Assembly (NCBI GenBank): GCA_905221615.1
Contig: CAJNDT010004635.1
Location: 457,769 to 521,768 of the forward strand
DNA from: Symbiodinium sp. CCMP2592
Lineage: Eukaryota; Sar; Dinophyceae; Suessiales; Symbiodiniaceae
Length of the DNA stretch: 64,000 bases
Reading direction: 5' to 3'
Part shown: positions 19,039 to 51,249 of the stretch, one piece after another
How positions within the stretch are numbered: position 1 is the first letter of the stretch
How the letters are laid out: each line of letters begins with the position of its first letter
Program-made: the position numbers and the translations under genes
The notes under the pieces: model-generated
What the model saw: only the letters and a program-made list of their open reading frames with translations
What the model was told of the DNA's origin: nothing
The model's database searches: none

Positions 19039-19386
19039 AAATGTGCCTGGCCAAGAACTGGCCACTCGTCCTTGGCATTCCTGCCTCTCAAGTTATGAAG
19101 GGTGGAACGCCTCACATCGTCCTCACTGTACCAGCGGAAACACCAGCTGCGGAAAATGGCGTTATTGCAAGAAGCTTCACTGACTTCACAATAATTAATA
19201 GAGCTGCGAATGAGGACAGAGTCACAGGTGACTGACTGGTCTCTGATCAGCCATGGCACATCTTAAAATCTTCCTGAAGACTTGGCTTTTTTTACACACA
19301 CGCACATTCTTCTCGTGGCGGGTCGTTGCTTGCTTGCTCTTTCGCAAGACAGCGTCGAAGCAAGCAAGCAACGTCCCAAAGACCGG

Positions 19387-20158
19387 CATCGGAGAGGCGG
19401 CCTGAGGAGGTGCCGGGAGAGGTCATCCCAGGGATTACGGTGGTCCGGAGCCTCGTGAAAATGGCTGATTGTAGTTGCAAAGGTTCGTCGGGAGCCCCGA
19501 GCCTCCATAGCACGCATTATACCAAGCCAGGGTATAGGGGTATAGTATCATGGAAGAAGAAACATAGCGGCAGCTGACAAACATCCCCAAACGGAAGCCG
19601 CAACACTGGTCTCTGAAAGGAGTCGGGAATTAGGGTTTCGCTCTTCATCTCAAACCACAACAGGCCAGCGTATGTTACTTAGCCGATTCAACAGACTCCA
19701 GGGGAACGCCAGGGGCTTATGGGTCCTTAGGCCTAGTAGTAGGACTAATGCAGGGATCATGGTGGTCCAGAGCCTCCTCCAGAAAGATTGATTCTAGCTG
19801 CAGACATTCATCGAGAGCCCCAGGCTTCGGTGACACCCTGTGTATCAACCCAAGGTATACTATCTCAGAAGAAGAAACCCGGCGGCATCTGGCAAACATT
19901 CCCAAGCGGCAGTCACAACACGGGTCTCTCAAAGGATGATTGGGGATTTAAGATCTATCCTATACCACAAACGGGTCCACCTCGCTGAGCTGCTGCGCGA
20001 TCCGTGGCGCCGGGATTCCAGCAGCGAAAGGCAGTGCAGTCATTAGGGATTTGGAAAGACACCGTTCCGAAGTGAAACACCTTACTTCACCAGGAAACCC
20101 GCCAGATGCCGCAAAGTATTTAACGTGCCACGCAATCGAGGAGCTCCTGCGTCTCGAT
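19387..20158. repeat. Duplicated block, copy 1
   Basis: About 770 bp that recur at 20,663-21,428 with an offset of about 1,268 bp and high identity. Inside each copy two diverged halves of about 300 bp (one with GGTCCGGAGCCTCGTG, one with GGTCCAGAGCCTCCTCC) resemble each other, so an older duplication is nested in the younger one. No frame shows a recognisable protein. Confidence 0.75.
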
Positions 20159-20662
20159 GAGCCTTTGTCTGCTCACAGGACGTCGCGGCCAGGAGGAGAA
20201 CACCGAGGCATTGGGAATCACTACGCTTCCGCCGCACCAATGTACCAATGCGAGCACTTGAAGTTGCCGTTGACGGTTCGCCCATCATAGTTCTCGCTCG
20301 GCAGCCTTCGATTGTCAATCGGCCTGAGACGCCCACGGTACCTCACAACTTCATGGTGCACTCCTGCTCCGTTGACGGATCCATGTGCTTCATAAATGCA
20401 CGCTTCGTGCAATGCGTTGTCTCTTTAGCACACAACACACACACACACACATACACACATACAACTGGTTCGTGGGAGTTCGCAAGATCAAGTGAGACCA
20501 CAGAAGCCTTCGATTTGACTTCGATCTATGCAGAACAACAGACCTTACACTGCATCACGAAGCATTTCGGAGTCGGGTTGGGGGTGGAGAGCCAGCGCGG
20601 GAGGAACCTGGACCTAGACCGGATTACTCTTCCCAGGCGACCCTCCCCGGCCTTCGTCGTCA

Positions 20663-21428
20663 GCATCGGAGAGGTGGCCTGGTGAGGTGCTGGGAGAGGT
20701 CATACACGAGTTACGGCGGTCCGGAGCCTTGTGAAAATGGCTGGTTGTAGTTGCAAAGGTTCATCGGGAGCCCCGAGCCTCCATAGCACGCACTGTACCA
20801 ACCCAGGGTATAGTATCATGGAAGAAGAAACATAGCGGCAGCTGACAAACATCCCCAAACGGAAGTCGCAACACTGGTCTCTGAAAGGAGTCGGGAATTA
20901 GGGTTTCGCTCTTCATCTCAAACCACAACAGGCCAGCGTATGTTACTTAGCCGATTCAACAGACTCCAGGGGAACGCCAGGGGCTTATGGGTCCTTAGGC
21001 CTAGTAGTAGGACTAATGCAGGGATCATGGTGGTCCAGAGCCTCCTCCAGAAAGATTGATTCTAGCTGCAGACATTCATCGAGAGCCCCAGGCTTCGGTG
21101 ACACCCTGTGTATCAACCCAAGGTATACTATCTCAGAAGAAGAAACCCGGCGGCATCTGGCAAACATTCCCAAGCGGCAGTCACAACACGGGTCTCTCAA
21201 AGGATGATTGGGGATTTAAGATCTATCCTATACCACAAACGGGTCCACCTCGCTGAGCTGCTGCGCGATCCGTGGCGCCGGGATTCCAGCAGCGAAAGGC
21301 AGTGCAGTCATTAGGGATTTGGTAAAAACACCGTTCCGAAGTGAAACACCCTACTTCACTAGGAAACCCGCCAGATGCCGCAAAGTATTTAACGCGCCAA
21401 GCAATCGAGGAGCTCCCGCGTCTCGACG
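20663..21428. repeat. Duplicated block, copy 2
   Basis: Second copy of the block at 19,387-20,158. The 505 bp between the copies (20,159-20,662) include a short (CA)n run near 20,434-20,460 and nothing I can identify. Confidence 0.75.
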
Positions 21429-22260
21429 GTGGCCAATCCCTGTGGAGACTTGCAGACGGTGCCACCCCTTGTGCTAGCGGCGCTCCACAGGAACCATCAT
21501 CCGCGCCATCGCGGCTGTCATCATGCTGATACCACCAGAGCAGGTCCAAGCCTCCAAGCGGCCACATTCTGTGGCGAGGCAGCCAAGATGACTGCAGGGC
21601 AGAACGTCAAGAGCCAGCTTCTCGTTTGGCCAGCACGACGGACTCGCGGGTTGGACAAGCCGCGCATTTGGAGTAGTGCTGCCTAGGCGAACACAACGGA
21701 CTCGCAGGTTGCTTGCACAGGCCGCAGGCACCGTCCCGCCAAGACAAGCCGCGCATTTGGAGTGGTGCTGGCTAAGCTCGTCTGAAGGGTTGCAAAGTGT
21801 GCCATCTCAATGGCGACTTCTCAAGAGGAAGAACGGATCATTCAAGAATCCAAACAGTAGCAGTGGGCAACGAAGCTAAACCGGGACACCGGGTTGAGCA
21901 GAACCCCGAAGACCTTTCGGCCACACAACGGAAATTCTGAACTTGAACCAACCAAGCCCAGCAGTCCGCAGTGGGAAACTCAGGAAATGAAGAGGTTTCT
22001 GTTAGACCGACCTTCCCAGCCTCGACGAATCCAAAGCGACCGGGCAGTGCAGGCAACCTCAGGAGCAGGGTTGCCCCGCCCAAGCAGCCGCACTTTCGCA
22101 AGACAGCGTCATTCTGCCACGAGCAGAAGAAACAACAAACAAGCGATTTTCTTCTCGTGGCGGCGTCGTTGTTGCTTGCTTGCTCTTTCGCAAGACAGCG
22201 TCGAAGCAAGCAAGCAACGGTGGAAGCTAGCCAGAGCAAAGAATTCACAGCCCGCACGGC
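21429..22260. other. Intergenic sequence downstream of the RCC1-like gene
   Basis: No supportable gene. It contains two copies of the 20-bp core (22,095 and 22,187; the latter with 14-bp perfect arms of CTTGCTTGCT type) and a weak match to the AATCCCTGTG...GGGTTGC satellite word near 21,435 and 21,785. Confidence 0.5.
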
Positions 22261-23568
22261 TCACCGTGGAGTCAAGGGCCGCGCCACCCAGTCGCCCCAG
22301 CTCACGACTTGGTCGTTGTCAAGAACGGCAGCAAAACCAAGAGCGGAGGCTGCGATACCCCGCACATTCTTGAGCTGATCTCGCACGGCACTGCTGTCGC
22401 CACCGCGCTCTGGGAAGCCCCATGATACAACCGTGCCGTCGGCCTTAATGGCAGCGAAAGCATTGAAGTTGCTTGCGATCTGCTCCACATCTGTCAACTG
22501 ATGTTGCACTTTGCTGCTGTTGCCACCATGAAGGCCACAGCCCCAGGTTACGACGGAGCCATCGCGTAGAAGCGCTGCAAAGGCTCCGCGGTTACTTTGG
22601 ATTTCTCTAACGTCCTTCAGCCGTTTCTGCACTTCACTGCTGTCCGCACCAGAATATCGAGCCCCACCCCATGTAACCACGGAACCATCTGTGCGGATCG
22701 CTGCAAACGCATGCGTCGTCGATTGGATGGCCGATACATTGCACAACTGTTCCTGCACCGCGCTAGAGTCGCCTCCGCTGAAGTCTTCACCCCATGTAAA
22801 AACGGATCCGTCGGTCAGAATGGCTGCAAAAGCCCTCGATGAGGATTGGATGGCGGTGACGTTTTGCACAGGCACAGAACTGCATTTGCCCCAAGTAACG
22901 ACAGATCCATCGTCGAGCAGCGCCGCAAAGGCTTCTAGTGACGCTTGAATCTGCCGCACGCCTTTGAGTTGCTTCTGCACTCCACTGGAGTCGCCTCCGT
23001 GTACACATCTTCCCCACGTCACGACAGAGCCATCTGTGCATGTTGCCGCAAAAGCATCGCCGGTGGTCTGGATGGCCTGCACGTTCATTAAAAACTCCTG
23101 CACTCTCAGGCTGTCCCCACCGCCAGTTCGGGAGCCCCAGGTAACAACAGAACCATCGGCCTTGATAGCAGCAAAAGAAGATCGACCCGCTTGAATCTGC
23201 CGCACGTTCTTCAGCTGATTTTGCATAGCGGGCTCGATGCCGCCTCCGTAGTCTTGCGCGCCCCATGTAACAACGGATCCATCATCAAGAATCGCCGCAA
23301 AGGCGGCCCCTTCCTGAGACGATGCAACGGCCTGCACGTTTTTCAAACGGTCCTGAACAGATTTGCTGTCACCACCAGTCATAGCATTCCCATAGGACGC
23401 GACCGAACCATCGCGGCGGAGCAACGCACAAGAGAACGCGCTCGAGCTCAAAGCCGCTTCGAGGAAGAGGTAGAGATTGCCCGAATCAAGGCGACCCCTA
23501 CCTCTTGCTCGCGCCTCCTCCAATGAAACCTGTTCTCCACTCAGGAGATGTACAGTGACACGTTTCAT
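22261..23568 (-). CDS. RCC1-like beta-propeller protein
   Basis: A single uninterrupted frame of 435 residues. After about 30 residues that begin MKRVTVHLLSGEQVSLEE (possibly the start of a ubiquitin-like strand, uncertain) it consists of about ten repeats of 36-40 residues, each with a DGSVVTWG core followed by GGDSS-V---L-NV--I and FAAI. This is the pattern of RCC1/HERC-type repeats, which form a seven-bladed propeller; ten units is more than one propeller needs. The dinoflagellate versions I recall have this same DGSVVTWG consensus. No catalytic HECT or GEF signature is visible, so the partner is unknown; protein binding is the family's usual role. The upstream frame starts at the first ATG. 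It is intron-free, unlike the Helitron gene on the same strand. A palindromic 20-bp core lies about 55 bp beyond the stop. Confidence 0.88.
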   Translation of the reverse strand: MKRVTVHLLSGEQVSLEEARARGRGRLDSGNLYLFLEAALSSSAFSCALLRRDGSVASYGNAMTGGDSKSVQDRLKNVQAVASSQEGAAFAAILDDGSVVTWGAQDYGGGIEPAMQNQLKNVRQIQAGRSSFAAIKADGSVVTWGSRTGGGDSLRVQEFLMNVQAIQTTGDAFAATCTDGSVVTWGRCVHGGDSSGVQKQLKGVRQIQASLEAFAALLDDGSVVTWGKCSSVPVQNVTAIQSSSRAFAAILTDGSVFTWGEDFSGGDSSAVQEQLCNVSAIQSTTHAFAAIRTDGSVVTWGGARYSGADSSEVQKRLKDVREIQSNRGAFAALLRDGSVVTWGCGLHGGNSSKVQHQLTDVEQIASNFNAFAAIKADGTVVSWGFPERGGDSSAVRDQLKNVRGIAASALGFAAVLDNDQVVSWGDWVARPLTPR

Positions 23569-23867
23569 GCCGGTCGCGAGCTACAGCAAGCTATCAGATG
23601 GATGCTTAGAACAAGCATAACATTGAGTCAGTATGTAGACAAAAGCCATAGTTGGAAGCAAACCAAGTTCCATAATCCTGGCAAGATGGCATCCAACCAT
23701 TTAAGCAGGCATGACATCGTTCTCAGGAAACACTAACATCATAGAAACCATGCCATGTTCATTCTGTTGTGCTCAGCCGAACTTTCGCAAGACAGCGTCG
23801 ATTCGGCTTCAGCACAGGGTGAGCAACTTCGCCCACTCGCAAAGAGCAAGCTTGAGAAAAAGCCAAA

Positions 23868-24159: not shown

Positions 24160-24330
24160 TCTTAGGGACCTATGCGGTGACGATCGTTTTGCTCGATCGT
24201 TCGCAAGACGGCGTCCGAGCAAGCAAAGAAACGAGACAGAAACGGTCGACATCTCATTCGTCCAAGCGCGCTCATTCGCAAGACGGCGTCCGAGCAAGCA
24301 AGGAAACGAGACAGCAACGGTCGACATCTT
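24160..24330. repeat. Short tandem pair with 20-bp cores
   Basis: A word around TTCGCAAGACGGCGTCCGAG followed by CAAGCAA, GAAACGAGACAG and AACGGTCGACATCT occurs twice (24,200 and 24,275), a 75-bp period. Both copies carry the GACGG variant of the core flanked by GCTCG/CGAGC or part of it. Confidence 0.7.
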
Positions 24331-25031: not shown

Positions 25032-25664
25032 TCAACATGTCACTACGGCCTCCCTTCTTTGTTCAATCACAACCAAAATTGTAAGCAGTCTGGTATAGCT
25101 GCTTCCCTGCCTCTCGCTGAGACACGCAGCCATCCTCGCCGAAAGACCTTTGCGCAACTGCACCTTGTCCAAGTGCGCTGCGTGCACACACATGAAAATC
25201 GAAGAGGTCCGATCGAAGACATCGAGGTAAAACTCCGGCATTCGCAACCGCCAAGTGCGCCGGAGGGTCGCGGCGACCGCAGAAGCCCAGCTCCGGGACA
25301 CGGCGGTCATCGCCTGTCGTTGTCGCACTCCCACCTGCTCCAGCCTGATCATGACCACGTCCCCTCTGACCCTGGTAGTCACACTCGGAATGAACAGCCG
25401 CCACTGTTCCGCGCGGTGGAGAACCGTTTGCTGGCAGACGCCATCTCGACGACAATGAAAGTAGCCCTCGACATCGTGATGGCAGGTCACGACGTCGTGT
25501 CCGTTCCTCCAATGAACCTGCACACTCACGTGAACCCACATTGCATCGCACAGCAGCCTTTCCAGCAACGGCGCCGGCAAGCAAGAAGCCTTCGCCATCG
25601 CTGGTTCTGCCGCCATATCAGCAGCTTTTCTTGCACCAGACGAGACGTCGTCACGTGTTTCCAT
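25032..25664 (-). CDS. Uncertain hypothetical protein, 210 residues
   Basis: From the ATG at 25,664 the frame reads METRDDVSSGARKAADMAAE and continues for 210 residues to a stop at 25,032; the larger frame upstream merely crosses two copies of the 20-bp core. The composition is protein-like in parts, for example a hydrophobic/charged stretch with RGDVVMIRLEQVGV and another with EFYLDVFDRTSSIFMC, and it is rich in Arg. I recognise no family. The other frames on both strands are also open over much of this GC-rich segment, so coding is not secure. Two cores lie 35-95 bp upstream of the ATG. Confidence 0.3.
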   Translation of the reverse strand: METRDDVSSGARKAADMAAEPAMAKASCLPAPLLERLLCDAMWVHVSVQVHWRNGHDVVTCHHDVEGYFHCRRDGVCQQTVLHRAEQWRLFIPSVTTRVRGDVVMIRLEQVGVRQRQAMTAVSRSWASAVAATLRRTWRLRMPEFYLDVFDRTSSIFMCVHAAHLDKVQLRKGLSARMAACLSERQGSSYTRLLTILVVIEQRREAVVTC

Positions 25665-27144
25665 GGCTAACGCCGGTGAACTTCTAGGGAGGCACCGAGC
25701 TTTCGCAAGACAGCGTCGACTCGGCAATGAATGAACTTCTAGGGAGGTACCGAGCTTTCGCAAGACAGCGTCGACTCGGCAATCAAAAGGGTATGAACAG
25801 CAATGGAGCCAAAGCTTCGTCGCAGAGCGTGACGGGTTTTCGCTCTTGATGTAACTAAATACGCAGAGACCTCTTTTCCCGGGCACCTGGCGCCATGGCA
25901 ATGACGCGACTCGGCAAACGCCTGGGCAGCCAGACCAATGCCCAAACCACCGAAGAATCCAAATCCGAACATGAAGGCCCGACTCACGAATCGAGGGTCG
26001 GGTTATTGTGTGGAAGCTTGACAGGCTTACCACCTACAAGAGAGCATGATGTTGGTTTATTTCATGGGGTGCAACCTACCCCGATACCGAGGGTCCGGGT
26101 GGGACTTATGTTCTGCTCGTCGACTATATGGTCTATGAACATACATACAGACCGAGCAGGCGAACACCGATCATCATGGTTCCGACACTTCGAGGGCAAG
26201 GGCAACTCGCATTCATCGGAGGGCTTTCGCATTAGCTCAAAGTACGAAAGGTATAGACCAGAGCATGATGCGGGGTTTATTCACTGGGGTGCAACTTACC
26301 GCGACACCGAGGGTTTGGCTAGGACCTACATTCTCCTCGTCGGACAACGATCATCATGGCTTCGTTGCTTGGAGGGCGAGGACAACTTACATTCATGGGA
26401 AGGCTTTGGAATCAGGTCAAAGTACGGAGCCAGCAGTAGCTGCAAATCCTGGCTTGGGGCCTCCAGAGGCGTCATGGTGACGAGAGTCGAGAAGGGACTC
26501 AGATGGAAGAACGAGCACGCAGGCAAACGGCAGCCTAGGGAAACCACGTGTGAATTGTTTTCACATGCGATTCCACTGCGGGTTAAGGTTCTTAGGGACC
26601 TAAACCCAACTGCGATGAGGGTGCGGCAGCATCTGTGCACCTCGGCCAGCGCTAGGGCGAACACTGGCCGCACGAGGACGAGCGCCCAAAACGCGTTTGC
26701 GAAACACCTCTATAATTAAGACGCAGCACTAGTAGGGAGCAGTGATTCCAGCAGCAATGTAATGAAGCAACAAGAGGAAGAACGAGTCTTGAGCTTCAGG
26801 TCGACGCGCTCATGGTCTTTCTCCGTGAGTAGGAGGAGAGGCGTGGAAGGATTGGCCCGTGGGTACGTGGGCAACGACTAGACTGGTTGGAGCGACACCT
26901 GGCACTCCGGTCGATGCGTCTTGCGCCTCGGCGGAGGTCGCTGCGTCTTCCCAGTCAAGATCGGCATCGTGGTAGAAGAAGTCGCGAAGATGCCACTTCA
27001 GATTCAACGTCCTTTCGTCATGGCCAGATCTCCGCGATATTCTCAACCATGATCGTCACTTGACGTCCACATCTTCCATATCTTGTCGGCCATAATGTTG
27101 CGCATGCCCCGCTTAATGGCCTTCTCTCTGTCTGAGTTGTCGGA

Positions 27145-27628: not shown

Positions 27629-29329
27629 CTAAATCGCGTCATTTTTCTTCCCGGTGCTTTCCATGTCGCACGAGGTGCGGAAATGTCACGGCACCCATGC
27701 AACCGAACTTTCGCAAGACAGCGTCGATTCGGCTGCACGCGGTGAGCAACTTCCCGTACTTCCCCGGGGCTTTGTGTGTAGCACGAGGCGCGTAATTAAA
27801 TGTCACGGCACCCATGCAACCGAACTTTCGCAAGACAGCGTCGATTCGGCTGCACGCGGTGAGCGTTGAACTTCTAGGGAGGCACCGAGCTTTCGCAAGA
27901 CAGCGTCGACTCGGTAATGAATGAAGTTCTAGGGAGGCACCGAGCTTTCGCAAGACAGCGTCGACTCGGCAATCAAAAGGGTATGAACAGCAATGCAGCC
28001 AAAGCTTCGTCGCAGAGCGGCACGGGTTTTCGCTATTGATGTAACCAAGTACACAGAGACCCCTTTTCCCGGGCACCTGGCGCCATGGCAATGACGCGAC
28101 TCGGCAAAGGCCTGGGCAGCCAGACCAATGCCCAAACCACCGAAGAATCCAAATCCGAACATGAAGGCCCGACTCACGAATCGAGGGTCGGGTTAGTGTG
28201 TGGAAGCTTGACAGGCTTACCATCTACAAAAGAGCATGATGTTGGGTGTATTTGATGGGGTGCAACCTACCCGGGACCTATGTTCTGCTCGTCGACTATA
28301 TGGTCTATGAACATACATACAGACCGAGCAGGCGAACACCGATCATCATGGTTCCGACACTTCGAGGGCAAGGGCAACTCGCATTCATCGGAGGGCTTTC
28401 GCATTAGCTCAAAGTACGGAAGGTATAGACCAGAGCATGATGCGGGGTTTATTCACTGGGGTGCACCTTACCGCGACACCGAGGGTTTGGCTAGGACCTA
28501 CATTCTCCTCGTCGGACAACGATCATCATGGCTTCGTTGCTTGGAGGGCGAGGACAACTTACATTCATGGGAAGGCTTTGGAATCAGGTCAAAGTACGGA
28601 GCCAGCAGTAGCTGCAAATCCTGGCTTGGAACCTCCAGAGGCGTCATGGTCACGAGAGTCGAGAAGGGACTCAGATGGAAGAACGAGCACGCAGGCAAAC
28701 GGCAGCCTAGGGAAACCACGTGTGAATTGTTTTCACATGCGATTCCACTGCGGGTTAAGGTTCTTAGGGACCTAAACCCAACTGCGATGAGGGTGCGGCA
28801 GCATCTGTGCACCTGGGCCGCACGAGGACCAGCGCCAAAAACGTGTTTGCGCAAACCCTCTACAATTAAGACGCAGCACTAGTAGGGAGCAGTGATTCCA
28901 GCAGCAATGCAATGAAGCAACAAAGGGAGGAAGAGGAAGAACAGGCCTTGAGCTTCAGGTCGAAAGGATTGGCCCGTGGGGCGCCGGTCGTTGCGTCTTG
29001 CGCCTCGATTGGCCCGCGTGGTGCGCCGGTCGTTGCGTCTCGTGCGCCTCGGCGGATGTCGCGTCGTACCAGTCAAGATCGGCATCGTCGTAGAAGAAGC
29101 GCCGTGGAAGAAATGCTGAAGACGGCCCTTCAAGGTCAAGTCAACGTCCCATGGCCAGATCTCCACATCTTCGCTGACATCAGGTCGCGCATGCTCCGCC
29201 GCATGGCCTTTGCAAGCTGACTCGAAGTCGTGGATAGGATAGGTCTTGTCTTGGGTCTTCGAAGTAGTCACGACTGCACTGGGTCGGGGGCCTTTTAACC
29301 AAGTCTAGTCACTCATAGTTGCGGGGGTT

Positions 29330-29772: not shown

Positions 29773-30148
29773 CTAAATCGCGTCATTTTTCTTCCCGGTG
29801 CTTTCCATGTCGCACGAGGTGCGGAAATGTCACGGCACCCATGCAACCGAACTTTCGCAAGACAGCGTCGATTCGGCTGCACGCGGTGAGCAACTTCCCG
29901 TACTTCCCCGGGGCTTTGTGTGTAGCACGAGGCGCGTAATTAAATGTCACGGCACCCATGCAACCGAACTTTCGCAAGACAGCGTCGATTCGGCTGCACG
30001 CGGTGAGCAACTTCCCGTGCTTCCCCGGGGCTTTGTGTGTAGCACGACGCGCGTAAATGTCACGGCACCCATGCAACCGAACTTTCGCAAGACAGCGTCG
30101 ATTCGGCTGCACGCGGCGAGCAACGTCGCCTACTTCTAAGAGCAAGCT

Positions 30149-30981
30149 TCAGAGCCCCAGACGGCGTAAGAAGTCCTCCGTCTGCTGATCGGGGTCTTTC
30201 GCCCATCCGCGAGCGTTCTTCCCGGAAGAGGAGCAGTGCACATCGAAGTTAGGGAGGCTGGCGTAGTACTGCATGCACTGCACACAGCCAGCGCTGGCCG
30301 CATATAGAAATTTGTACTCCAGTTGACGATCTTCATCCAGATGTGCATGCCTTCGCCAGTTCCGGTAATGAGGCTGGTTTTCACAAGGTTTGTAATCCAC
30401 CGATGTATCACTACTCTCACTAGACATGCTGCTTGACGACGAGGTATCCCGCGGAACTTCGCCTGTCTCTGCGGCCGTAGGGCTTGGTGACCTCGGAGCG
30501 GAGGAAGGGCCAGCACCTCCGGCCGCAGCGCTGGGTGTCCGCGAAGGGAAACTTGCCCATGCAGTGTCTGTGAAGCAGAACTGGGACCACAGTCTTCGCT
30601 CGCAACGTCAGGCGGCGACGAGGGTGGCGGAGGGACATTTCTTGCCCAATGAACTCGAAATGTCTGAGAGGGAATGGCAGCGCCAGCAGCAGCACAGCCT
30701 CCGCCCGCGGTGTTGGGTTGCCGCGGAAGGGCGTTAGGCCAAACATGCCGCGGAGAGGCACTTGGCCATGCTGAAAACGGTTTTTGCCGAATCTCACACC
30801 ATCGCTCAAACCTTTCCATCTCAGTGGCCAGCCACGTCTGGAACCCTGCGTCTCCGGCTTTGTTTGGACGACCGTCTCTCCGTAGCATGCGATACTTGTT
30901 CCTCACAGTGTCCACGTCCATCCATTTAGCACGGTCAGGATCGAGCCGCAATTTGTTCAAAAAAACACCGAAATCCGCCAT
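30149..30981 (-). CDS. Two-part hypothetical protein with CxxC unit (frameshifted or intron-split)
   Basis: From an ATG at 30,981 one frame reads MADFGVFLNKLRLDPDRAKW and gives a helical, charged N-terminal part ending near ERWCEIRQKPF, followed by a Pro/Ala-rich linker. From about 30,470 a different frame reads MSSESSDTSVDYKPCENQPH and then LEYKFLYAASAGCVQCMQYY, a CxxC unit, an aspartate-containing stretch and a last helix QTEDFLRRLGL before a stop at 30,149. The two parts need a frame change of one base between about 30,430 and 30,800; it could be an intron, a frameshift mutation or an assembly error. The CxxC unit also occurs, broken, at 23,868-24,040. A core copy lies 15 bp upstream of the ATG and another about 47 bp beyond the stop. 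Function unknown. Confidence 0.5.
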
Positions 30982-31009
30982 CGAGCAACTGAGCTTTCGC
31001 AAGACAGCG

Positions 31010-34000
31010 TCGACTCAGCGATTCCCCGGGAAACTATGAACGTCGACGGAGCCAAAAGCTTCGTTGAACAACCACCATGTCGCATGAGGCAAGTTTCAAA
31101 CTGAGAACAGGGCTCGCGCACCAAAGCATACATGGACGTCTTTGTAGAGCGCGAGCAATCACCTGATGCAAGGCGGCTGCATAGAGTCTATAGAGGCAAA
31201 TGTCAGGATATGCAACAAGTCCAAGCTGAAACTCGACCGAGGAGCAATCCTGAATCCGTTTAAAGTGCCCTACAAAGCAAACCAGACAAGAGGTTTCCAC
31301 GTCATCAGCCCCAGTCGACCGTCCCGGCCTGTGAACGGATCACTTTGCACATTCCGGGCACCTTCGCAAGTGCCGGGAGCAGTTCGACCACAAGCGATGA
31401 TTTACTGGGCCTCGCGAACCTGGTGCATCCATTCTGTTTGTTAGCTGCATAGCACTCACAAGGAGGTCTCCAGGCCAAGGTTTAAGGTGTTTAAGATGTA
31501 CGCTTCATATGACCGCTCTGGTTGCGGTCACCCACAGCGAGTGATCCACGATCAGGGGCCTACGCGGAGCCTCGCAAAGCCAGCGCATGATGGTTCTCTG
31601 CTAGCTGGATACGGCTTCGTACAAGATCTCCAGGCAGCAGCTGAAGAACCTAACAATGACTGCGGCGCTTAGCAGAAGCAATCCATGAAGACTATGACCA
31701 AAGTTGAAATCGGACAGGATGCGATACCCGAAGAACAAAACCACCGTGGCAGGCGACCACTGGGTCCACCGTCATTCCGGGTGAAGTGTCAGCAGCTTCA
31801 TGGCAGTAGCTTGACGAATGCTTCCAAGCTGGGGTCAGCTCCACTGCGCTCGGACCCGAGCAGAAACTCAGAAGAGAACTCTTCTGCCGGCACGTCCCGC
31901 TCCGAGTGTCTTCGCGGCTCGACGTTTAGGAGCTCTCACGAGCTCATCCCAATCTGCTTCGGGAGTTGTCCAGCTGCAAGAACTTGCAGGACGCATCGGG
32001 AGACACGTGTTACAGCACATTGCCAATCCAACCTGGAACCAGGCTCCCCGTGCTTGGTCAAGGCTGCGTAGGTGCTCGGACGTGTTTCATCACCTTCTTC
32101 GTGGTCATCGACAGAGAGATGAGAGCGACGGCTAAGGTTCGCCCATTCCATGTGGTTTGGCCGCTCTCCAGTTCCAAAAGCCGACGAAGGAGCAGAATTC
32201 AGGAATTTTCTTAATTCTTAACTCGACCTTCCTCAAGGAGCATGATTCCCAAAAAGCCGACGAAGGAGCAGAATTCAGGAATTTTCTTAATTCTTAACTC
32301 GACCTTCCTCAAGGAGCATGATTCCCACGATCTGAAATCATTCCAACTGGCTCGTTTTTCTTTCCCCCGTCCTACTTCCAAAACCGACAGGTCTAACGTC
32401 TCGACAAGAGAAGCGTGTTTTACAACTCACAGAGCTTTGTGCTTCGGTCGACCGCCCCGGCCTACCAAGAAAAGCGATACTCGACTTGGACCGTCCCGAA
32501 GACGTCGGTACCTGCCACAACACACACGGGTGCGCTACGCTGACAGCCCAAAGCGGCCACACACATGCTTCCACATGCCGGCAAGCGAATCGACAAGGAT
32601 TTTCTGATCAATAGCAAGCACAGCAAACCACAAAACCCCACCCCCTGACTTAAGCATCCCTTTCTGTAATGGCCTCCCCGGCGTCTTTGCAAAGACGAAC
32701 GTGCTCTGACAGTCATGCGGACCGGAGACTTAGGCCACCCCCATTCGGCCGAGATATGGGGTCACCCCGCTCTGCCATGGGGATATCAGGCGAAGGCGCT
32801 CAACGACCACTAGCAGCTGCAAGCATTTGCCCGCGCTATGCTTATGTCGCCCTCTGCTCGCAAAGAAGCAGGACGTCGTGGTCGTCGTGGTGCCATCCCA
32901 GAGTTCGCAGCGGATACTTCTGCCCCCGACATTACCTTCTGCTGGACTTTGCCAACAGCTTGGCGCAAGAGCCGAACGTCGGGTCGGCCATGGCAAGAGC
33001 GGTAGTCGAATTTAGTTCGACTGTGGCGCGGGTACGTGGCATCAAATGGTAGCTGCCAAAACTCGCGAGCGAGCGAAGAGCTGCCGTTTGTTAGAACACG
33101 ATACATCAAACCCCATTCTGAACATGACTATGCGCAAGCAACACCATTCTTCGGCCTCCCATGGAAGAGCTTGGGTCACCGAGGCTACGTCATTTTTGGG
33201 GAGGGGCCACCTGGCACGTTAGCGCATGTGTCCAGATGTCATAGCCAGATGCCCGCTGGCCGTTGGCCCCAACCCCCCCCTAGACTACAGGACCCCAGTG
33301 CCCTTGCCCGCGCTCCACACCCGGCCAACAGTGTGTCGGTAGCTGCCAAAAATTGGCGGGCATGCAGCTGCCGCTTGGTAGAGCAACATACACCAAACTC
33401 CATTCTGAACATGTTGGCACTCGTGACAAACACAACCGAACAGCAAGCCAAGCAAGGTGCTCTGCTCAATAACACAACCGCGTCCCAAGAACGGACGGCC
33501 CCCCTTCTTTGTTCGGAACCTGGAAGTCTGGCCCGGACAACAGGATCCAAGGTCGCAGAAAATCCAGCCTTTGCCCCAGCACGGCGCATTAGCCCATAAG
33601 CCCGGCTGTCATCTACCCGCTGCCCTGGGGTAGGTTGGCCTCAAGGCAAAACCGAACGCCTCACACCTGGCCAATGGTGTGGGGAGCAACCGCGATGGGG
33701 CAGGGGTTTACTCCTTAGGTAAGGCAACCCCGAAGAGGTTCGACTGGCACTCTGCCTCGGCACTCTGCCTCTGTCGTCGATCCAAGAGAACAGAAAGCAT
33801 GTGCTCAGCAGAAAGAGATATAGCCTAATCATGGGTTAGCGGCCTCCCCCATTTGCTGAAACCCACCCCACTCGGCCAAGGTGGGTCGCCATGCTCACAG
33901 GGAAATATTATGATAACAGCTGAGCTGGCAAGTCAAAGATTCGTTCACTTCAATCGTTGAGATACAAGTACAACTTGGACTTCAACACCATGCGCAAAGC

Positions 34001-35441: not shown

Positions 35442-36170
35442 CTACTGAAGGCGGTGCAAAGCCAAGAGCACGTAGTCGCGGCGTCTCCACGCTCTTAGAG
35501 CTGGTCGAGCCGCTAAAATGCGCCCCACAGCTTCCGCCGCGCTGCACCTTGTGTCCTGCATCAACCATGCGCAAAGGGCCGCAGGGCTGCGATTGATGCC
35601 GCCGAAGCAGTGGAAGAGCACGTTGAAGTCCTTGCCCTCCTTTCTGCAGGCTGTGCGTGCACTCGACAGAGCATCAGCCATGCCTTTCCAAGTTTGGGTG
35701 CAGTTCTGCGTGCATTCCAAGAACCAGTCCGGATGCTGGCTGTACCTGACCTGGTGGTCGTCCAGCTCGACTTGCAAGTGACGCACACCGCAATCGAGGA
35801 AGTGCTTGTTCCAATCTCTCGGAGTTCCTTTCACTTGCATCTCTGTTTTCCAACAAATGCTGACAACAACTGTAACAGGAACTTTCGTGTGCAACTCCAC
35901 ATTGTGGAGGTCCGCAGCCGAGCGCAAGCTGCCGAGCAGACACTTCTCGCCGGGCTCGGAGCTCACCACCACAGCGTCGAGAGGCCACTCCGAGATGTCC
36001 CCGAAGTTGTAGGACTCGCCCCAAACAATGTAGTCCATGTCCGACCAAGGTCCATGCTCGTATTTGTTTGCAATTTCGAGCTGCCAAGTTCGAATAAATT
36101 TTTCTTCCGCATCTGACATCGCCGACGAAGCAGAAGAAGCAGAAGACGAAGAAGCGGCCAGGGCATCCAT
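35442..36170 (-). CDS. Dual-specificity / tyrosine phosphatase-like protein
   Basis: A single frame of 242 residues. Near residues 186-195 it reads FHCFGGINRS, the HCX5R(S) phosphate-binding loop of cysteine-dependent phosphatases, with Cys188 as nucleophile and Arg194 as phosphate ligand; helices follow as in dual-specificity phosphatases (ALCAWLM, AAEAVGRILAARPALR). An upstream HFLDCGVRHLQVELDDH segment lies where the fold has its DSP general-acid strand, and Asp138/139 or a neighbour could be the acid; I cannot fix which. The loop has FGGIN rather than the common XAGXG, so specificity is unclear. The N-terminus is Ser/Ala-rich and low in complexity; translation could also begin at Met18. 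It would remove phosphate from protein or other substrates in cytosol or nucleus; no signal peptide is seen. Intron-free in the visible frame. Confidence 0.8.
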   Translation of the reverse strand: MDALAASSSSASSASSAMSDAEEKFIRTWQLEIANKYEHGPWSDMDYIVWGESYNFGDISEWPLDAVVVSSEPGEKCLLGSLRSAADLHNVELHTKVPVTVVVSICWKTEMQVKGTPRDWNKHFLDCGVRHLQVELDDHQVRYSQHPDWFLECTQNCTQTWKGMADALSSARTACRKEGKDFNVLFHCFGGINRSPAALCAWLMQDTRCSAAEAVGRILAARPALRAWRRRDYVLLALHRLQ

Positions 36171-36535
36171 ATGTGCAAAGTAGCAAGCAGGCTCGAAGGA
36201 ACTAGGTCTCTCGGGCCAAAGCTGTCAATACAAGCAAGCAGAGAGAACACTCCGGTCACGACAATTCGATCCACGCGATCCCTCACTTCCTGCCATTCTC
36301 CAGGCTGATCATTTCCACGATCTCGTCCTCAGACGTTTCCGTGATTACCTTGATAATCTCGGTGATTTTACCACTGGATGATGCATGTGCTACAGTAATG
36401 GTCCAGGTGATTGGTTCTCGCGCGACAGCAGCTTTGGCCGCGAGCTAGACACACAGCCCGCTGGCGGAAGGCAGCTTTCGCAAGACAGCGTCGACTGCTC
36501 CGTGTGAGACGTTTGCAAAACCGTACCCTCGCTTG

Positions 36536-37075: not shown

Positions 37076-37174
37076 CCAGACACGCAATCCACTCGCGAAA
37101 TGCAGCTTTCGCAAGACAGCGTCGACTGCTCCGCGTGGGGACTTTTTGCAAAACAATACTATCGTTGCTTCGAA

Positions 37175-37550: not shown

Positions 37551-37968
37551 GGCGCCAAACAGACACGAAGAACGGAATCTAACTCAGCAGCTGCGTGGAA
37601 GAATGTAGCATGCGAGCAGGAGCAGCCAAGATTCGCCTTCGCTATCAATGAAGCTGCCTGAGCTCGCTCCTACCTGACAAGACGCCATGGAACAAACAGC
37701 ATTTTTGTCGTGTCAAGGCCGAGAGAATCGCGCATCTAAGACTCAATCAGCGGCTTTAGAACATCACTGCTACGTGCAGAGGCTAGATACAGACCACTGG
37801 CGGAATGCAGCTTTCGCAAGACAGCGTCGACTGCTCCGCGCGGGGTCCGTCGCAAAACTGCACCCTCGCTTCGAGGAGGTTCAGTCAATGCAGCCCACTG
37901 GCGAAATGCAGCTTTCGCAAGACAGCGTCAACTGCTCCGCACGCGGACCCTTGCAAAACTCCACCCTC
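37551..37968. other. Spacer with two core copies
   Basis: Cores at 37,813 and 37,914, each in a related context (GCGGAATGCAG or GCGAAATGCAG on the left, CTGCTCCGC on the right, then GCAAAAC-CACCCTC). The sequence stops at the assembly gap in the middle of the second unit. No gene seen. Confidence 0.6.
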
Positions 37969-40659: not shown

Positions 40660-41588
40660 TGAGGGGGAACCCAATGCATGTCCTCGCCTGCTCCCCTTCC
40701 TCATCGGCTTTGGAAACGTAGGCAAAGCGCTCTGCCCTACGTTGGCTGCTGCTGATTTGTCTCGCAGAATGGTGCAAAGAAACTCGCTCCAGCCAGGTGT
40801 CCTGAACGTGACACATGTGTTCCAGGGGAGTGAGTTGAGTGTAGTGAAATCCGCAGGGGATGTCCAGAAAGCAACAGATCCGTTCATGAACTCGCGGGAG
40901 GTCGTGAAAAGCATTGCTTCGATTTGGAAACATCTTGCCCCAACACCACATGAGGAAGTACGGGAAGTACCCGCAGTTCGGAAGATCGAGAACCTCGCCA
41001 GATCCACAACCCGGCTCCGGCTCCGGCTCAGCAGCTGAATTTCGCAAGACGGCGTCCTCCAAGTTGCTGCCGCCGACAGCTGGACTTCGCAAGACAGCGT
41101 CCTCCGAACCGCCGGCACCGTTATGCGGATGCTGGCCGTCCTGCTCATCCTCCTCGACCTTCGGCATCGGAAACCACTCTCGCACACCGACGAGATCCCT
41201 GACATACGGCAGTGCAACACCACCCAAAAGCCTCTCCTGAGCAGAAGCTTTGCGCAGCTTCATGCAGGCTCGCCAGTGGCGCCATACCGGGGAAAAGCGA
41301 CATCGCACGAAACCTTCTTGTTCTCGCGGCTCCAGAACATGACACTGGAAACACTTCCAAGACTCATTGCAATGCTCCTCGCCTGCACAGCGAGGAAACG
41401 GAAAAGAGAGCCCGAGCATGCAGCAGGCGAGCTTCTCCTTCTCTCCAGCTGCAGGCCAATGTAAATCCATGGGCACGACGACGTTGTCGTCGGCACCTCG
41501 AAGCTCCTGCCGCAGACGTACATGTCTATACACATCACAAGCATGGAACGCGACATGGACTTGACGCTGATGCATGTCGGCTGACCTG
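40660..41588 (-). CDS. Helitron gene exon 16: linker between Rep and helicase
   Basis: Reads QVHVAFHACDVYRHVRLRQE onward, with HCNESWKCFQCHVLE and later FPRVHER-like Cys/His-containing sequence (RVHERICCFLDIPCGFHYTQ). It contains one 36-residue repeat of the EDAVLRSP type formed by two core copies (41,041 and 41,086), related to the three at 44.9-45.2 kb. The downstream part ends at a (TG)n-rich intron near 40,660. Domain boundaries are not clear. Confidence 0.6.
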
Positions 41589-42806: not shown

Positions 42807-42844
42807 CTGCTACCCACGCCGACACGTGCTACGTTGCAAACAAG

Positions 42845-42875
<31 letters not shown>

Positions 42876-42925
42876 CATAACACACAAAAGACATCGCTCA
42901 CACAAACACACCCACACACACGCAC

Positions 42926-44129
42926 ACGTGCGGACAGGAAACTTCTTGAAACAAGACTTCGTGCACTTGTGAAAGTGGTTTTGAATGACCAGACGCCGAT
43001 AGTCCTTGCACAGCTGCTGCGACCACTCGGAACCAGACAGTGCATCTTCCTTGCGGCAGCGGCGAAGATATGCCGGTCTCAGCGAATTATAGCAGCCCGT
43101 CAATCGCAAAGGTGCCTGGTCGGTACTCTCCGTGGCCGCAAGCTCATGCCCGTCCGGCTCCTTCTCTCCCAAAGGAGCCCCCGCATACTGATTGCCCGCA
43201 GACGCCTTTAGGCGCTCGCCAAGAGGCAGGGGCGCGGCATCGACGGACAGCTGGGCAGCCAAAGCAAGCTGGCTGTCATATCGAATGCGGCTTGCGGCCT
43301 CCAAGACTTTCTCGCGCCAACGTTGGAGCTCGGTCACGACCTCACCTCGCGCAGCCCTGGCCATCATGGAGCGCAGACGACTGCCCAGGTCGTGGCCCAA
43401 CAGAACGATCAAGATGTGGGGATGCATCGAACCTCGTCCTTGAGTCTCCAGAGGGCCGCAGAAAGCGGCAATGTCACCGAAGCAACCTGGGAAAGTCGAT
43501 GCCGCGAAACCATCTTCGTAGAGCTGAGCCTTTCCTGCACGAAAACTCGCTCGAGTAAAGGGTGGCAACGTTCCCAGCACCTCTTCGAAAAACAAAGTCA
43601 TCATGAGATCGAAAAACCTCGCCTGCGACACGGGATCGGCTGCCAACATACGCCTCATGGCGGCCAAGGACGGCAGCGAGGGCTCTTCCAAGTCCCATCG
43701 CAGATCGACGTCGAAGTTTTCGACCTTCCCTTCCGCGCCTTGAAGGTGCAGCTGCAGCAGCAAAGAAGCACGGGAATCCGCCAAATTCGGCGTCACGAAG
43801 ACGTGAGAAGTCCCGTAGTGCCAACCAGCCGCATGGCCTCGAAGTCGAATTTGACTGCGGTGTCCTTCCGTGCCCAAGACGTTCGCGCTCGCCTGCAGCA
43901 CGCTGCCAAGCGCGCGCTTCAACGACACGTCAACATCCGGCGACCGCAATAACTCGCGAATGTCGGCCTTCTCGCCGTGCAGGGCCATGGCCTGCAGCAG
44001 CTGTTCCGTGGTCACCGACGCAATCTTCGCACAGTGTCGACTGAAACCACTCCGCTTCACGTAGGCTTTCGATGTCCGCATAAGAGAAAGTCTGCGGTTC
44101 ACATCGTACATGACAGGCAAGAGCTGCTC
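42926..44129 (-). CDS. Helitron gene exon 13: Helitron-like N domain and Rep HUH motif
   Basis: About 400 residues. The exon reads EQLLPVMYDVNRRLSLMRTS at its start; further on comes AAGWHYGTSHVFVTPNLADS, the FxTxNP-type motif, then FFDLMMTLFFEEVLG, GCFGDIAAFCGPLETQGRGS and MHPHILIVLL. The HPH at 43,416-43,424 is the HUH metal-binding motif of rolling-circle Rep nucleases, preceded as usual by the QGRGS block. It ends HFHKCTKSCFKKFP, the beginning of a Cys/His segment whose other half (GCRFGCFH) is in the next exon, as in other Helitrons. All catalytic metal ligands look present. Confidence 0.85.
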
Positions 44130-44400
44130 CTGCTGCGAGCCCCTTCACTTTCACAAATCCGCCAGCTTTCGCAAGACAGCGTCCACTGGCGGAATTATTT
44201 AATGTCGATTCTTAACTCCAAACCCCGTCTTGAATGTAACACTGCCAGGACACGGACATACTACTTTCACATATCCGCTAGCCGGCGGAAATATTTAATA
44301 TCCATTCTTAACTCCGAACCCGGTCTTGAATGTAACACTGCCAGGACACGGACATACTCCACCGAGGAAGGGCCGGCGAAGCAATCGTGTCGCCATAAAC
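44130..44400 (-). other. Helitron intron holding a filled/empty core pair
   Basis: A GT-AG intron of 271 nt (CTG|GTTTAT ... GCAGCAG|GAGCAG) joining EEL to EQLLPVMYDVNRRL in phase 0. It is largely a tandem duplication of about 107/127 bp: both copies carry CTTTCACA-ATCCGC-AG and GGCGGAA-TATTTAAT through GACACGGACATACT. One copy has the 20-bp core inside its palindrome (44,167-44,186) and the other does not (44,274-44,287). Confidence 0.8.
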
Positions 44401-45530
44401 CAGCTCTTCTCGAAGCAACAAATACCGAAATACCTCGCCCGCCTCCATGCCCGTCTCGCGCCTGACGAACGGAACGCCGTCCCCCCAAGGAAAAAGCTCC
44501 GGGAACGCCATCGCCCAGGTGGCCGGCTGAAACATGTTCATCGGTTCGTCACGAGAAGGTACCACGAGCTTTTGCGGCCGCACTTCAAACATCTGCTTCT
44601 GGGCTCGTCGCTCCTGCTCCACACCCTTGGCCATCGACTGCACCTTTTGAACACGGCGCAGCACTGCCCGCTCCTGCTGGCCCTCGCGCCCCAACAAGCC
44701 CACAGCATGCGGCCGATCCGGATCCACCTCGTTCTGCACCCGGCTGCGAAGGACGGATTCCGCATCCGTGTAATATTGCGGAGGCCTGCGACGACATAGT
44801 TCTTCTACATCGCTACACACTCGCAACCAGCGATTGCCGTCATCCGACTGATCGTTCAATCCAACGATGCTGGATACCAGATGGCCAGAATCCGAATCAG
44901 CACCTGAACTTCGCAAGACGGCGTCCTCCAAGTTGCTGGCGCCGGCAGCTGGACTTCGCAAGACAGCGTCCTCCGAACCGCCGGCGCCGCGACCAGGATC
45001 CGGATCAGCAACTGAACTTCGCAAGACAGCGTCCTCCAAGTTGCTGGCGCCGGCAGCTGGACTTCGCAAGACAGCGTCCTCCGAACTGCCGGCGCCACGG
45101 CCAGGATCCGGATCAGCAACTGAACTTCGCAAGACAGCGTCCTCCAAGTTGCTGACGCCGGCAGTTGGACTTCGCAAGACAGCGTCCTCCGAGCTGCCGG
45201 GGCCGCGATCCAGATTCTGTTCGTCTGGCTCGCCCTCCTCATCTTGGCCTTGCGCATCGGCCGGGCCCTTTTGCAAAAGTTCGCGGGCCAAGTAACTGTC
45301 AGCGGCCGTTTCCAAAACGCAGCCTTCCAGTGCGTCGACGTCGTCACCAGGAGTTAGGCCGGCCTCCAGCGCGACCGACCTGTAGTAAGGCGACGTCTCG
45401 CGCAGCTTCTCAACAGCGGCAACATACTCCTCTCTGGGAGCTTGCAAAAGCTTGCTGGACCGCAGTTCCTGCTTCTTCTGCCCAACCAAAACGAACAAGA
45501 TGCTCTCGGCCATGTCTTGGTCTTTGGGAG
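44401..45530 (-). CDS. Helitron gene exon 11/12: end of DUF6570 region, 36-residue repeats, LFPWGDG motif
   Basis: Continues AESILFVLVGQKKQELRSSK and NP-Y-like PYYRSVALEAGL, then an acidic linker with three tandem 36-residue repeats (EDAVLRSP-AG-SNLEDAVLRSS-ADPDPGRGAG) made from six in-frame copies of the dispersed 20-bp core (108-bp period, 44,900-45,195). After the repeats come the sequence MNMFQPATWAMAFPELFPWG and DGVPF, the typical LFPxGxG motif at the beginning of Helitron-like N domains. The donor is CTG|GTTTATGG at 44,401. Confidence 0.75.
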
Positions 45531-45534
45531 CAGA

Positions 45535-46190
45535 GTAGCCTGGATGGCGCTAGGCCCAGCCTGCGGCAGGAAGATCGTGTTACCGATGTATCCCTTCTGC
45601 CTCTCGTCTCGCGGCAGTGACAAAGGTTGCAAGACGGTCACCTGCATGCAAACCCGCACGATGGGAAGCAGCCGTTTTGTTCCAGCCGAGAGGTTGCTGA
45701 GCTCGGGCAATACGCGTCCGATCCAAAGGTCGTTGGCCAGCGCATGCCTGGGAAGCGTGAGAATACTGCTCTTCAAACTCCTGCGACAGTCTCTGCAAAC
45801 CGTACAGGGGTCCGTGAAAGATGCCGGCATGCGGCGGCGATGCAGCAGCAGAAACTCGCCTTCAATGTACGGATGCTCCACAGCAGAGGCCTTCAGTTCG
45901 GAAAGAGCTATCTGCGGCCAGCGCTCCGCATACCGAGCGACGCCCAACAATCGGCAAAGACGGTGCTGCTGATTCGGGGCCAGCGTCTCGGCGCCGGCAG
46001 GTACCTCGATTGTCGACGCATCTTCATCCGGCCTCTGAAAGAGAACCATGGAAAACAACTCGTTCATCCAGAAACGGCGAGCGCACACCACGCAGCCTCC
46101 TTCCGCTCGGCCACCGTCCATTTCAAGAGGGCATCGCAGCTCCTCGTCGAAATTGGCAGCGATTGCACGCTGACGACTCATCCCAGGCAC
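45535..46190 (-). CDS. Helitron gene exon 11: Cys-pair zinc motif and DUF6570-like region
   Basis: Contains CPLEMDGG followed by GGCVVCARRFW, a Cys-x2-Cys pair, then CTVCRDCRRSL and the strong LPRHALANDLWIGRVLPELS block followed by RLLPIVRVCMQVTVLQPL. The last two are the hallmark I know from DUF6570, found next to the Helitron-like N domain in many eukaryotic Helitrons. The frame is lost near 45,530 within a conserved stretch where the next frame (PKDQDMAESILFVLVGQKKQ) takes over with no intron signal: a one-base frameshift or a sequencing error. Confidence 0.7.
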
Positions 46191-50564: not shown

Positions 50565-50579
50565 GGGATGGAAGAAGGC

Positions 50580-50815
50580 GTCCACGCCGGCCCTTTCGCA
50601 AGACAGCGTCGAGGCAAGCAAAACACTGTCCCAAGTATGTTCAAATGCAAAAGTGTCTGCACCGACCCTTTCGCAAGACAGCGTCGAGGCGGGCAAACAA
50701 CTGTCCTAAGTATGGTCAGCTGAGAAGATGAGAATAAGCTGAGAATAATCTCCACACCGGCCCTTTCGCAAGACAGCGTCAAGGCAGGCAAGGAAGCGTA
50801 CTAGGTGTAGTAAGA
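50580..50815. other. Region upstream of the Helitron gene with three cores
   Basis: Core copies at 50,595, 50,670 and 50,765, flanked by GGCC/GGC or CC/GG only; CAAACAACTGTCCTAAGTAT-like spacers repeat between them. No promoter motif can be identified. Confidence 0.55.
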
Positions 50816-50889
50816 TGCTGCAATGTGTGCAAAATACTGCAACGCGTTTTCCCTTTCTTCCCCTTCTTCTGCCTTTCGAGCCAAACGAG

Positions 50890-51215
50890 GCAGGCAAACG
50901 TGCAAGGAGAAAGCCTTTACAGAGCAGCAAGAAACTCCGAGCCTGCAGAAGTCATCGGCCAGGCAGCCTGCGAGTCGAACGTGTGCAAGGAGAAAGCCTC
51001 TACAAAGCAGGAGGAAGCTCCGAGCCTGCAGGTCATCGACCAGGCAGCCTGCGAGTCAAACGTGTGCAAGGAGAAAGCCTCTACAAAGCAGGAAGAAGCT
51101 CCGAGCCTGCAGGTCATCGACCAGGCAGCCTGCGAGTCAAACGTGTGCAAGGAGAAAGCCTCTACAAAGCAGGAAGAAGCTCCGAGCCTGCAGGTCATCG
51201 GCCAGGCAGCGGCGC
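50890..51215. repeat. 81-bp tandem repeat, about 4 copies
   Basis: Units beginning GTGTGCAAGGAGAAAGCCTC and containing CCGAGCCTGCAGGTCATCGA repeat with a period of 81 bp; the first copy is diverged. Because 81 is divisible by three, frames stay open on both strands (27-residue repeats), which is not evidence for a protein. It ends at 51,225 in a core variant set between GGCGCGT and ACGCGCC. Confidence 0.85.
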
Positions 51216-51249
51216 GTTGCGCCGTCGCAAGACAGCGTACGCGCCGTAC

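Follow-up and report, generated by a model that had tools for sequence, protein, structure and literature searches.

The window analysed here is a whole stretch of 64,000 nucleotides from Symbiodinium sp. CCMP2592 (bases 457769-521768 of its contig, in an assembly of 1.098 Gb). Between positions 19339 and 51222 it carries a series of hairpins built around one constant core, and this core family, with the genes beside it, is the subject of our analysis. An earlier reading of the letters, here called the sequence-only reading, had counted about 37 core copies at the centre of palindromes; 37 matches to CTTTCGCAAGACAGCGTCGA were found at five mismatches or fewer (22 exact, 3 with one mismatch, 1 with two, 9 with four and 2 with five). 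All 37 lie on the + strand, and the open reading frames (ORFs) with Pfam matches in the hairpin part of the window lie on the - strand. On that gene strand the core reads GACGCYGUCUUGCGAA. The stem-loop structure of the core family is well supported.

The tip, read on the gene strand, is a CGC-YGUCUU-GCG stem-loop, followed by a GA/AA internal loop and then by a variable stem. The 3-bp CGC/GCG stem is nearly constant and the hexaloop YGUCUU is constant; the internal loop is small and purine (5' GA, 3' AA) and is mostly flanked by a U.G pair. The lower stem varies, has a length of about 7-20 bp and tolerates G-U pairs and bulges. Uninterrupted inverted arms, as the sequence-only reading had described them, are present at 19339 (15 bp), 22185 (14 bp), 44166 (8 bp) and 23782 (7 bp), and the arms of the CCGAA, CCGAG, CTGAG and TGGCT groups reach 5-6 bp (4 at 34381, 2 at 35048). 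The arm lengths first given were often too short; because gene-strand bulges and G-U pairs extend them, the stems reach 15-20 nt per side. Arms are poor or lost at 22093 and 35048 in the window, and elsewhere at L021:6001 and L045:5025 and in L055, L061 and L065.

At the low-coordinate end of the series stands a hairpin with perfect 15-bp inner arms (19317..19380). An RCC1-repeat ORF of 435 aa (22261..23568) has 3' hairpins, one with 14-bp arms 58 nt past its stop (22163..22226; z for folding against shuffles -5.13) and one with weak arms 150 nt past it (22071..22134). A hairpin with arms AGCCGAA/TTCGGCT (23760..23823) is followed by a tandem pair 75 bp apart (24251..24314 as the first, 24176..24239 as the second), a spacing which recurs on other contigs. 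Next lies an ORF of 210 aa without a Pfam match (25032..25664), with 5' hairpins 37 nt (25678..25741) and 92 nt (25733..25796, in tandem at 55 bp) before its ATG. Hairpins of the CCGAA type (27686..27749 and 27803..27866) and of the CCGAG type (27868..27931 and 27923..27986) lead to an ORF of 281 aa (30136..30981), also without a Pfam match, which has hairpins at either end. Past its stop runs an array, the first member at 36 nt (30060..30123, z -3.34), the second at 149 nt (29947..30010) and the third at 266 nt (29830..29893), and a further hairpin lies 14 nt before its ATG (30972..31035, z +0.20, no better than shuffles). A protein search found no relative of this ORF at E ≤0.001.

Farther along are a CCGAA hairpin with 4 bp next to the core (34359..34422) and one with a decayed arm (35026..35089). 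A phosphatase ORF of 242 aa (35442..36170), whose DSPc match falls just below the Pfam cut-off (33.0 vs 33.5 bits), is followed by hairpins 33 nt (35369..35432, z -0.94) and 127 nt (35275..35338) past its stop. GCAG-type hairpins lie at 36453..36516, 37084..37147, 37789..37852 and 37890..37953 (the last with z -2.78). Other inverted repeats stand close to two of these: a perfect 11-bp one at 36534-36558 (TGCTGCAGGTC, loop CGT) shortly before hairpin 36453-36516 on the gene strand, and a perfect 15-bp one with a 3-base loop at 37043-37075 (CCTCCGCTGTCGGTT...), about 10 bases downstream of hairpin 37084-37147 on the gene strand and not of the core family. The hairpin at 37084 is preceded by CAGGTCACTGACCTG, which is similar to TGCTGCAGGTC.

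Coding hairpins of a second type (41017..41080) and a first type (41062..41125) lie within ORF 40490-41821. A Helitron_like_N ORF (42810..44111) has a hairpin 56 nt before its ATG. The hairpin at 44144..44207, with perfect 8-bp arms (z -5.52), lies 124 nt past the stop of ORF 44308..45549, and its neighbourhood has a core-less tandem duplicate at 44263..44341 (79 nt, 89.9% identical, no gap). Six coding hairpins lie within ORF 44308..45549, of the second type at 44886..44949, 44994..45057 and 45102..45165 and of the first type at 44931..44994 (z -4.41), 45039..45102 and 45147..45210. By coordinate, three tandem hairpins follow (50571..50634, z -0.80; 50646..50709; 50741..50804), and directly downstream of them on the gene strand a 337-bp tandem repeat of 6.4 copies occupies 48369-50532. 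The series closes with a divergent copy, TACGC...GCGAC, which has other flanking pairs and scores 33.4 bits (51200..51263).

Covariation, folding and the pairing strand

The set of copies read at sequence level numbers 151, with 105 distinct 64-mers, of which the window contributes 37. It was drawn from the first contigs listed and from the listings of rarer variants and does not amount to a random sample. An ungapped 64-column alignment was made of 46 non-redundant copies with less than 80% flank identity. The sequence-only reading had proposed shuffling the flanks as a control: 73.2% of cells pair in the real alignment, compared with 58.3±1.3% after the 3' letters were shuffled (0/500 reaching the real value) and 33.9-45.4% with slid partners. 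The covariation score was 0.464 (shuffled 0.213±0.016, 0/500; slid 0.144-0.184). Changes on both sides were seen in 17 of the 19 pairs overall and in all 16 arm pairs. Pair 22-43, for example, occurs as GC (14), AU (13), UA (10), CG (4) and GU (4), and pair 23-42 as UG (34), CG (7) and AU (4), each being paired in 45/46 copies. RNAalifold, unprompted, returned 7 arm pairs and 2 core pairs from the same alignment.

In a set of 61 copies, own-arm pairing was 0.669 as opposed to 0.498±0.015 with permuted arms. The excess persists in the 24 copies that share less than 50% of their flank letters (0.586 vs 0.463±0.024), so the arms cannot all be traced back to a handful of loci. The effect of own-arm pairing peaks in the first 7 pairs and fades past about 8 in the ungapped register. 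These results, together with the shuffle tests, bear out the proposal of a two-step stem-loop in gene-sense RNA, with a constant core and compensating arms. The statement that flanks are not shared between loci went too far, as many copies share a C-C-G-N-N-U.G pattern next to the core, which makes them look like one diverging family; column pair 20-45 is G-C in 31/46 copies.

Most copies read fold with the constant tip at the apex, and the predicted hairpin energies range from about -10 to -41 kcal/mol. Of twelve hand-picked copies, nine beat dinucleotide shuffles in folding (z -2.78 to -5.52). Among the 37 window copies the sense fold, with the core stem forced, lay below the free antisense fold in 31. 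The length of about 60 nt and the hairpin shape, with arms that vary and a tip that does not, would also suit precursors of small RNAs, diced so that the variable arms serve as guides while the constant tip is read by the processing machinery. We consider this very unlikely. The precursors described for S. microadriaticum in the main text of PMC3853145 are longer and more stable than these hairpins (84-90 nt, -40.6 to -83.1 kcal/mol), and the core was not found in that main text, which was the part searched. Stems that drift are, in addition, not expected of guides with targets.

The strand that pairs was then judged from related copies. A strand asymmetry drawn from unrelated copies was withdrawn, and related copies with a substitution control were used in its place. 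Copies with at least 75% flank identity were compared and context-distinct changes were counted, the independence of these events being incomplete. Of the changes away from Watson-Crick pairs, 87 led to G-U and 34 to A-C; when the count is confined to the eight arm pairs closest to the core, the figures are 39 and 5. Because C/T and G/A differences numbered 34 and 28 in these near arms (86 and 33 in the outer arms, 64 and 45 outside the hairpin), a substitution bias does not account for the near-core excess of G-U. It is the sense strand that pairs.

Copies in the genome, at gene ends and in coding sequence

Genome-wide, the 16-base core GACGCTGTCTTGCGAA has 3336 exact copies and the reversed-pattern control none, so the abundance of the core is beyond chance. 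At one mismatch or fewer there are 4209 copies (reversed control 24), and 361 of the 873 single-mismatch copies carry one change, loop T to C. Variants of the middle core pair comprise 9 copies changed to G-U, 13 changed to A-C and 39 with both changes (GACACTGTCTTGTGAA); the compensated double change thus outnumbers either single one. The GACACTGTCTTGTGAA copies stem from few events, since 28 of the 39 form 14 pairs that lie 1038-1044 bases apart. Candidate relatives elsewhere were set aside: the 16-mer occurs exactly in 4 viral-contig stretches (3 with the same flanks) and an 18-mer exactly in 6 stretches of general genome contigs, all as single copies with unconvincing arms. By our own estimate 7-8 chance occurrences of the 18-mer would be expected in 257 billion bases, compared with the 6 found. 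Records near the window may have been excluded from the search of other contigs.

Core copies are gathered in islands. On the 4.0-Mb contig C1, all 12 exact copies among those listed fall within 2.629-2.668 Mb. When a further 150 kb were scanned with a covariance model built from the window and genome stretches L020-L027, L045 had 15 matches and L046 had one (16 in all, E up to 0.1). The 130 kb of L031-L044, which lie beside or between islands and take in the 20 kb to either side of the window, had no match. Orientation, judged from the first 100 places in the list, is uniform within islands on C1 (12/12), C43 (10/10) and C79 (11/11) and nearly so on C23 (11/12), where the odd copy sits in a CT microsatellite; C39 has blocks of either orientation. 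In L023 two core-family matches (5609-5672 and 5544-5607) run opposite to the strand of their neighbours, and the 5' arm of one is replaced by a CT microsatellite. Another listing of 100 places holds 19 copy pairs at 75-base spacing on 18 contigs, a recurrence which indicates that islands, or parts of them, have themselves been duplicated. The core spacing of C39:204785-230088 equals that of the window, and this segment is either a near-duplicate or another haplotype.

The position of the hairpins relative to genes was assessed for 100 copies from 11 sources, L028-L030 and L046 being omitted as near-copies of parts of the window. A gene end was taken as up to 100 nt after the stop or up to 60 nt before the ATG of an ORF of at least 120 aa. 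Same-strand gene ends hold 30 of the 100 copies (19 after stops, 11 before ATGs), compared with 7 on the opposite strand and 9.2% of random positions; with ORFs of at least 200 aa the figures are 21, 4 and 4.8%. Within the cut-offs, the hairpins lie 18-100 nt after stops and 14-56 nt before ATGs. L045 has a 319-aa ORF whose ATG is preceded by three hairpins at 45-base spacing, which end 30 nt ahead of it; a related ORF has two hairpins at the corresponding place. The ORFs marked in this way are otherwise unrelated (RCC1, phosphatase, ankyrin, Helitron_like_N and several without a Pfam match).

Enrichment on the same strand, right after stops and right before ATGs, in islands that are co-oriented is also what a signal for messenger RNA (mRNA) end processing would give, the hairpins marking cutting, polyadenylation or spliced-leader trans-splicing of transcripts from co-oriented clusters. 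This seems to us an unlikely explanation: copies lie within coding sequence as well, tandem copies at one end would be superfluous for a single cut, and the 130 kb without any hairpin means that such a signal would not be general to the genome.

The coding copies were followed in ORF 44308-45549, 98% of which aligns at 100% identity with a Symbiodinium sp. CCMP2592 protein that contains PF20209, which we take to be DUF6570, a domain linked to Helitrons. Its six copies are all in the frame that encodes EDAVLR, in the alternating contexts SSEDAVLRSP and NLEDAVLRSS, and two further coding copies lie in ORF 40490-41821. Both contexts encode EDAVLR and form their stems through different bases, with a bulge. 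The sequence-only reading had found the coding copies mixed; long stems do form in them once one bulge is allowed. Database protein P0002 (81% identity, 54% of the query) keeps EDAVLR and DDAVLR while the neighbouring residues differ, and in P0003 and P0004 the linker holds other sequence. Neither EDAVLR nor DDAVLR occurs in P0003-P0018, several of which are partial and lack that linker, and P0008 has AVLR elsewhere. With the EDAVLR stretch of P0001 as query, only P0001 itself was recovered among 7994 scored candidates.

The window has a Helitron_like_N ORF, the segment with this ORF recurs several times together with its hairpins, and copies at identical spacing lie on many contigs. These findings would fit a single-stranded DNA hairpin of a mobile element, for instance one acted on by a Helitron-type HUH protein, with the genes between hairpins as cargo; strand-specific pairing suits G-T in DNA too. 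On the other hand, hairpins also occur within coding sequence and next to numerous genes that are unrelated to one another, neither the tandem copies nor the coding frames resemble the ends of an element, and the fetched C43 stretches show hairpins and no Helitron ORF that we came across, although no systematic search was made. We give this explanation little credence. A transposable element with fixed ends would have constant ends between unrelated flanks; here the sequence beyond the core is not constant and is inverted-complementary instead.

The core-less duplicate at 44263-44341 bears on a further alternative, a process at the DNA level without selection on RNA, in which the 20-bp core inserts into palindromes or template switching perfects them. 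Quasipalindrome correction is a known process, and here exactly the 20-bp core is missing from one tandem duplicate, at a site within a 16-bp near-palindrome. We ran 115 joined-flank queries against the window and L019-L066, counting core-less rows that span the junction with at most 12 gaps. Seven rows were obtained. Six represent a single site, 44263-44341 together with the corresponding places in L027 and L028, and the seventh is a partial misalignment; the core as an insertion was rejected. A search confined to the window gave 14 rows, and the 13 apart from this site were at chance level (E ≥0.24). The duplicate shows no target duplication, and because its ends share AG a short deletion fits it equally. 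With just one such site among the 115 queries, and with the near-core sense-strand figures of 39 and 5, the gene-end enrichment and the shared arm consensus all left unpredicted, a DNA-level origin appears highly improbable.

The rest of the window holds other repeats. Tandem arrays of 73-173 bp units at 51260-53100 contain short palindromes such as CCCTGTGAAGGG, beside AT and TCTA microsatellites. Identical short hairpins, TGTGAACTC AAGG GAGTTCACA, at 54739-54762 and 63783-63804 flank an ORF of 2856 aa (54769-63339) with RVT_2 and zinc-knuckle domains, and are perhaps its terminal repeats. Scattered TTTAGGG-like 7-mer arrays occur at 1-19000 and 53965-64000, far from any contig end.

A candidate family of cis-acting RNA stem-loops

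The hairpin family has two features of a cis-acting structured RNA, namely a stem that covaries beyond controls and a place on the sense strand near starts and stops. We consider it reasonably likely that these hairpins are cis-acting RNA stem-loops of a new family, carried on the sense strand by nuclear genes that lie in clusters in a Symbiodinium. Their structure, strand and position suggest a regulatory function. A constant tip, a stem in which only pairing is kept, gene ends and the sense strand led us to propose an RNA element recognized by a protein; a trans-acting factor probably binds the hairpins, and by analogy the family would work like iron-responsive elements (IREs) without belonging to them.

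Several results weigh against a cis-acting RNA. Seventy of the 100 copies lie beyond the gene-end distances used, and 30 of the 100 are inside a same-strand ORF of at least 120 aa (42.5% for random positions). Over unrelated copies G-U pairs outnumber A-C pairs by 97 to 37, but permuted arms give 109 to 51, so that this excess is mostly composition. At the middle core pair, G-U is not favoured among the single changes (9 vs 13), and the outer-arm part of the G-U excess among related copies may be mutational, C/T differences there exceeding G/A by 86 to 33. A single-stranded DNA hairpin would account for sense-strand pairing equally well. The own 3' arm was the single best partner in just 3/61 copies (5/24 of the most divergent), because related arms pair equally well. 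When 3' arms were swapped among 10 cluster representatives, the own arm was best in 4/10 and worse than all nine others in 2/10; these single-linkage clusters (76 copies reduced to 10) were replaced by the non-redundant sets because most copies had merged and the representatives were poor. For three of the twelve hand-picked copies, shuffled sequences fold just as well (z -0.94, -0.80 and +0.20). Finally, the tandem duplicate at 44263-44341 differs by exactly the 20-bp core, as an insertion would.

If the hairpins do act as cis-acting RNA, the stem would present the constant tip to one trans-acting RNA-binding factor. This factor would read the tip and the internal loop and set the translation and/or stability of the marked mRNAs together, as iron regulatory proteins do through IREs. 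Copies near the AUG may act on translation, and tandem copies after the stop on stability or localization. The stem would be free to drift provided that pairing holds, and it is to this freedom that we attribute the appearance of a fixed core within locus-specific palindromes. The hairpins would have spread as genes were duplicated, in tandem or by segments, together with their ends, and also with a Helitron, and not through autonomous jumping. More tentatively, and with considerable doubt, we suggest that one hairpin-binding regulator controls a regulon of perhaps at least 1000 genes (our own estimate, from 4209 copies at 2-4 per gene) in islands of long uninterrupted frames, with the tip in the 5' untranslated region (UTR), the 3' UTR or the coding sequence, and that the Helitron, with the signal in its own coding sequence, rides on this control.

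A regulon under one regulator would, if true, be the first large cis-RNA regulon in dinoflagellates known to us. Within a single genome, coding sequence included, the family clearly exemplifies a tip that stays fixed while its stem covaries. The mRNA signals behind dinoflagellate control are little known, and a sequence-defined stem-loop would provide both a bait for the binding protein and a list of targets. Gene control in dinoflagellates is described as mostly post-transcriptional and translational (PMC12787238), and for the lbp 3' UTR a reported protein was not confirmed in another strain (PMC6027434). No element of this kind was seen in the available parts of these two papers, and among the matches listed from open PMC papers neither the core sequence nor such a dinoflagellate or Symbiodinium stem-loop element was found.

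Other short repeats share some of these features. Rickettsia palindromic elements are hairpins, 100-150 bp long and conserved in their arms, which are inserted between genes and, in frame, within coding sequence; by description the present family differs in that the tip alone is conserved and in that it belongs to a eukaryotic nucleus. Double-hairpin and palindromic elements of algal and fungal organelles are likewise many short palindromes spread through a genome. By description they differ in residing in organelle DNA, and we know of none with a constant tip and covarying arms. The introner elements of dinoflagellates (PMC7789003, in the part available) are, like the hairpins, short multi-copy repeats in dinoflagellate genes, but introners make introns, whereas the hairpins lie at gene ends and in open coding frames.

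The closest comparison is with the IRE, an mRNA stem-loop with a fixed hexaloop and a stem interrupted near the tip, which is found in 5' and 3' UTRs and acts on translation and stability (PMC8466369). Rfam 15, which includes the IRE, gave no match at the gathering score in the window, and in L024 and L025 none near a hairpin at E up to 5; one weak match there, EBv-sisRNA-1 (E 3.3), lies away from any hairpin and was discarded. The hexaloop is YGUCUU here and CAGUGN in the IRE, and the upper stem has 3 bp here and 5 bp in the IRE; copies number in the thousands and occur in coding sequence too. The six loop columns are invariant save the first. Measured against the IRE features given in the available part of PMC8466369, the cross-loop C-G pair (14-18) is lacking, as the first loop base is Y and the fifth is U; the place of AGU at loop positions 15-17 is taken by GUC (positions 2-4, 46/46 copies); and instead of a bulged C five bp below the loop there is a symmetrical GA/AA internal loop after the 3-bp stem. 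What the two have in common is a fixed hexaloop on a stem interrupted near its tip, with copies at both gene ends (PMC8466369).

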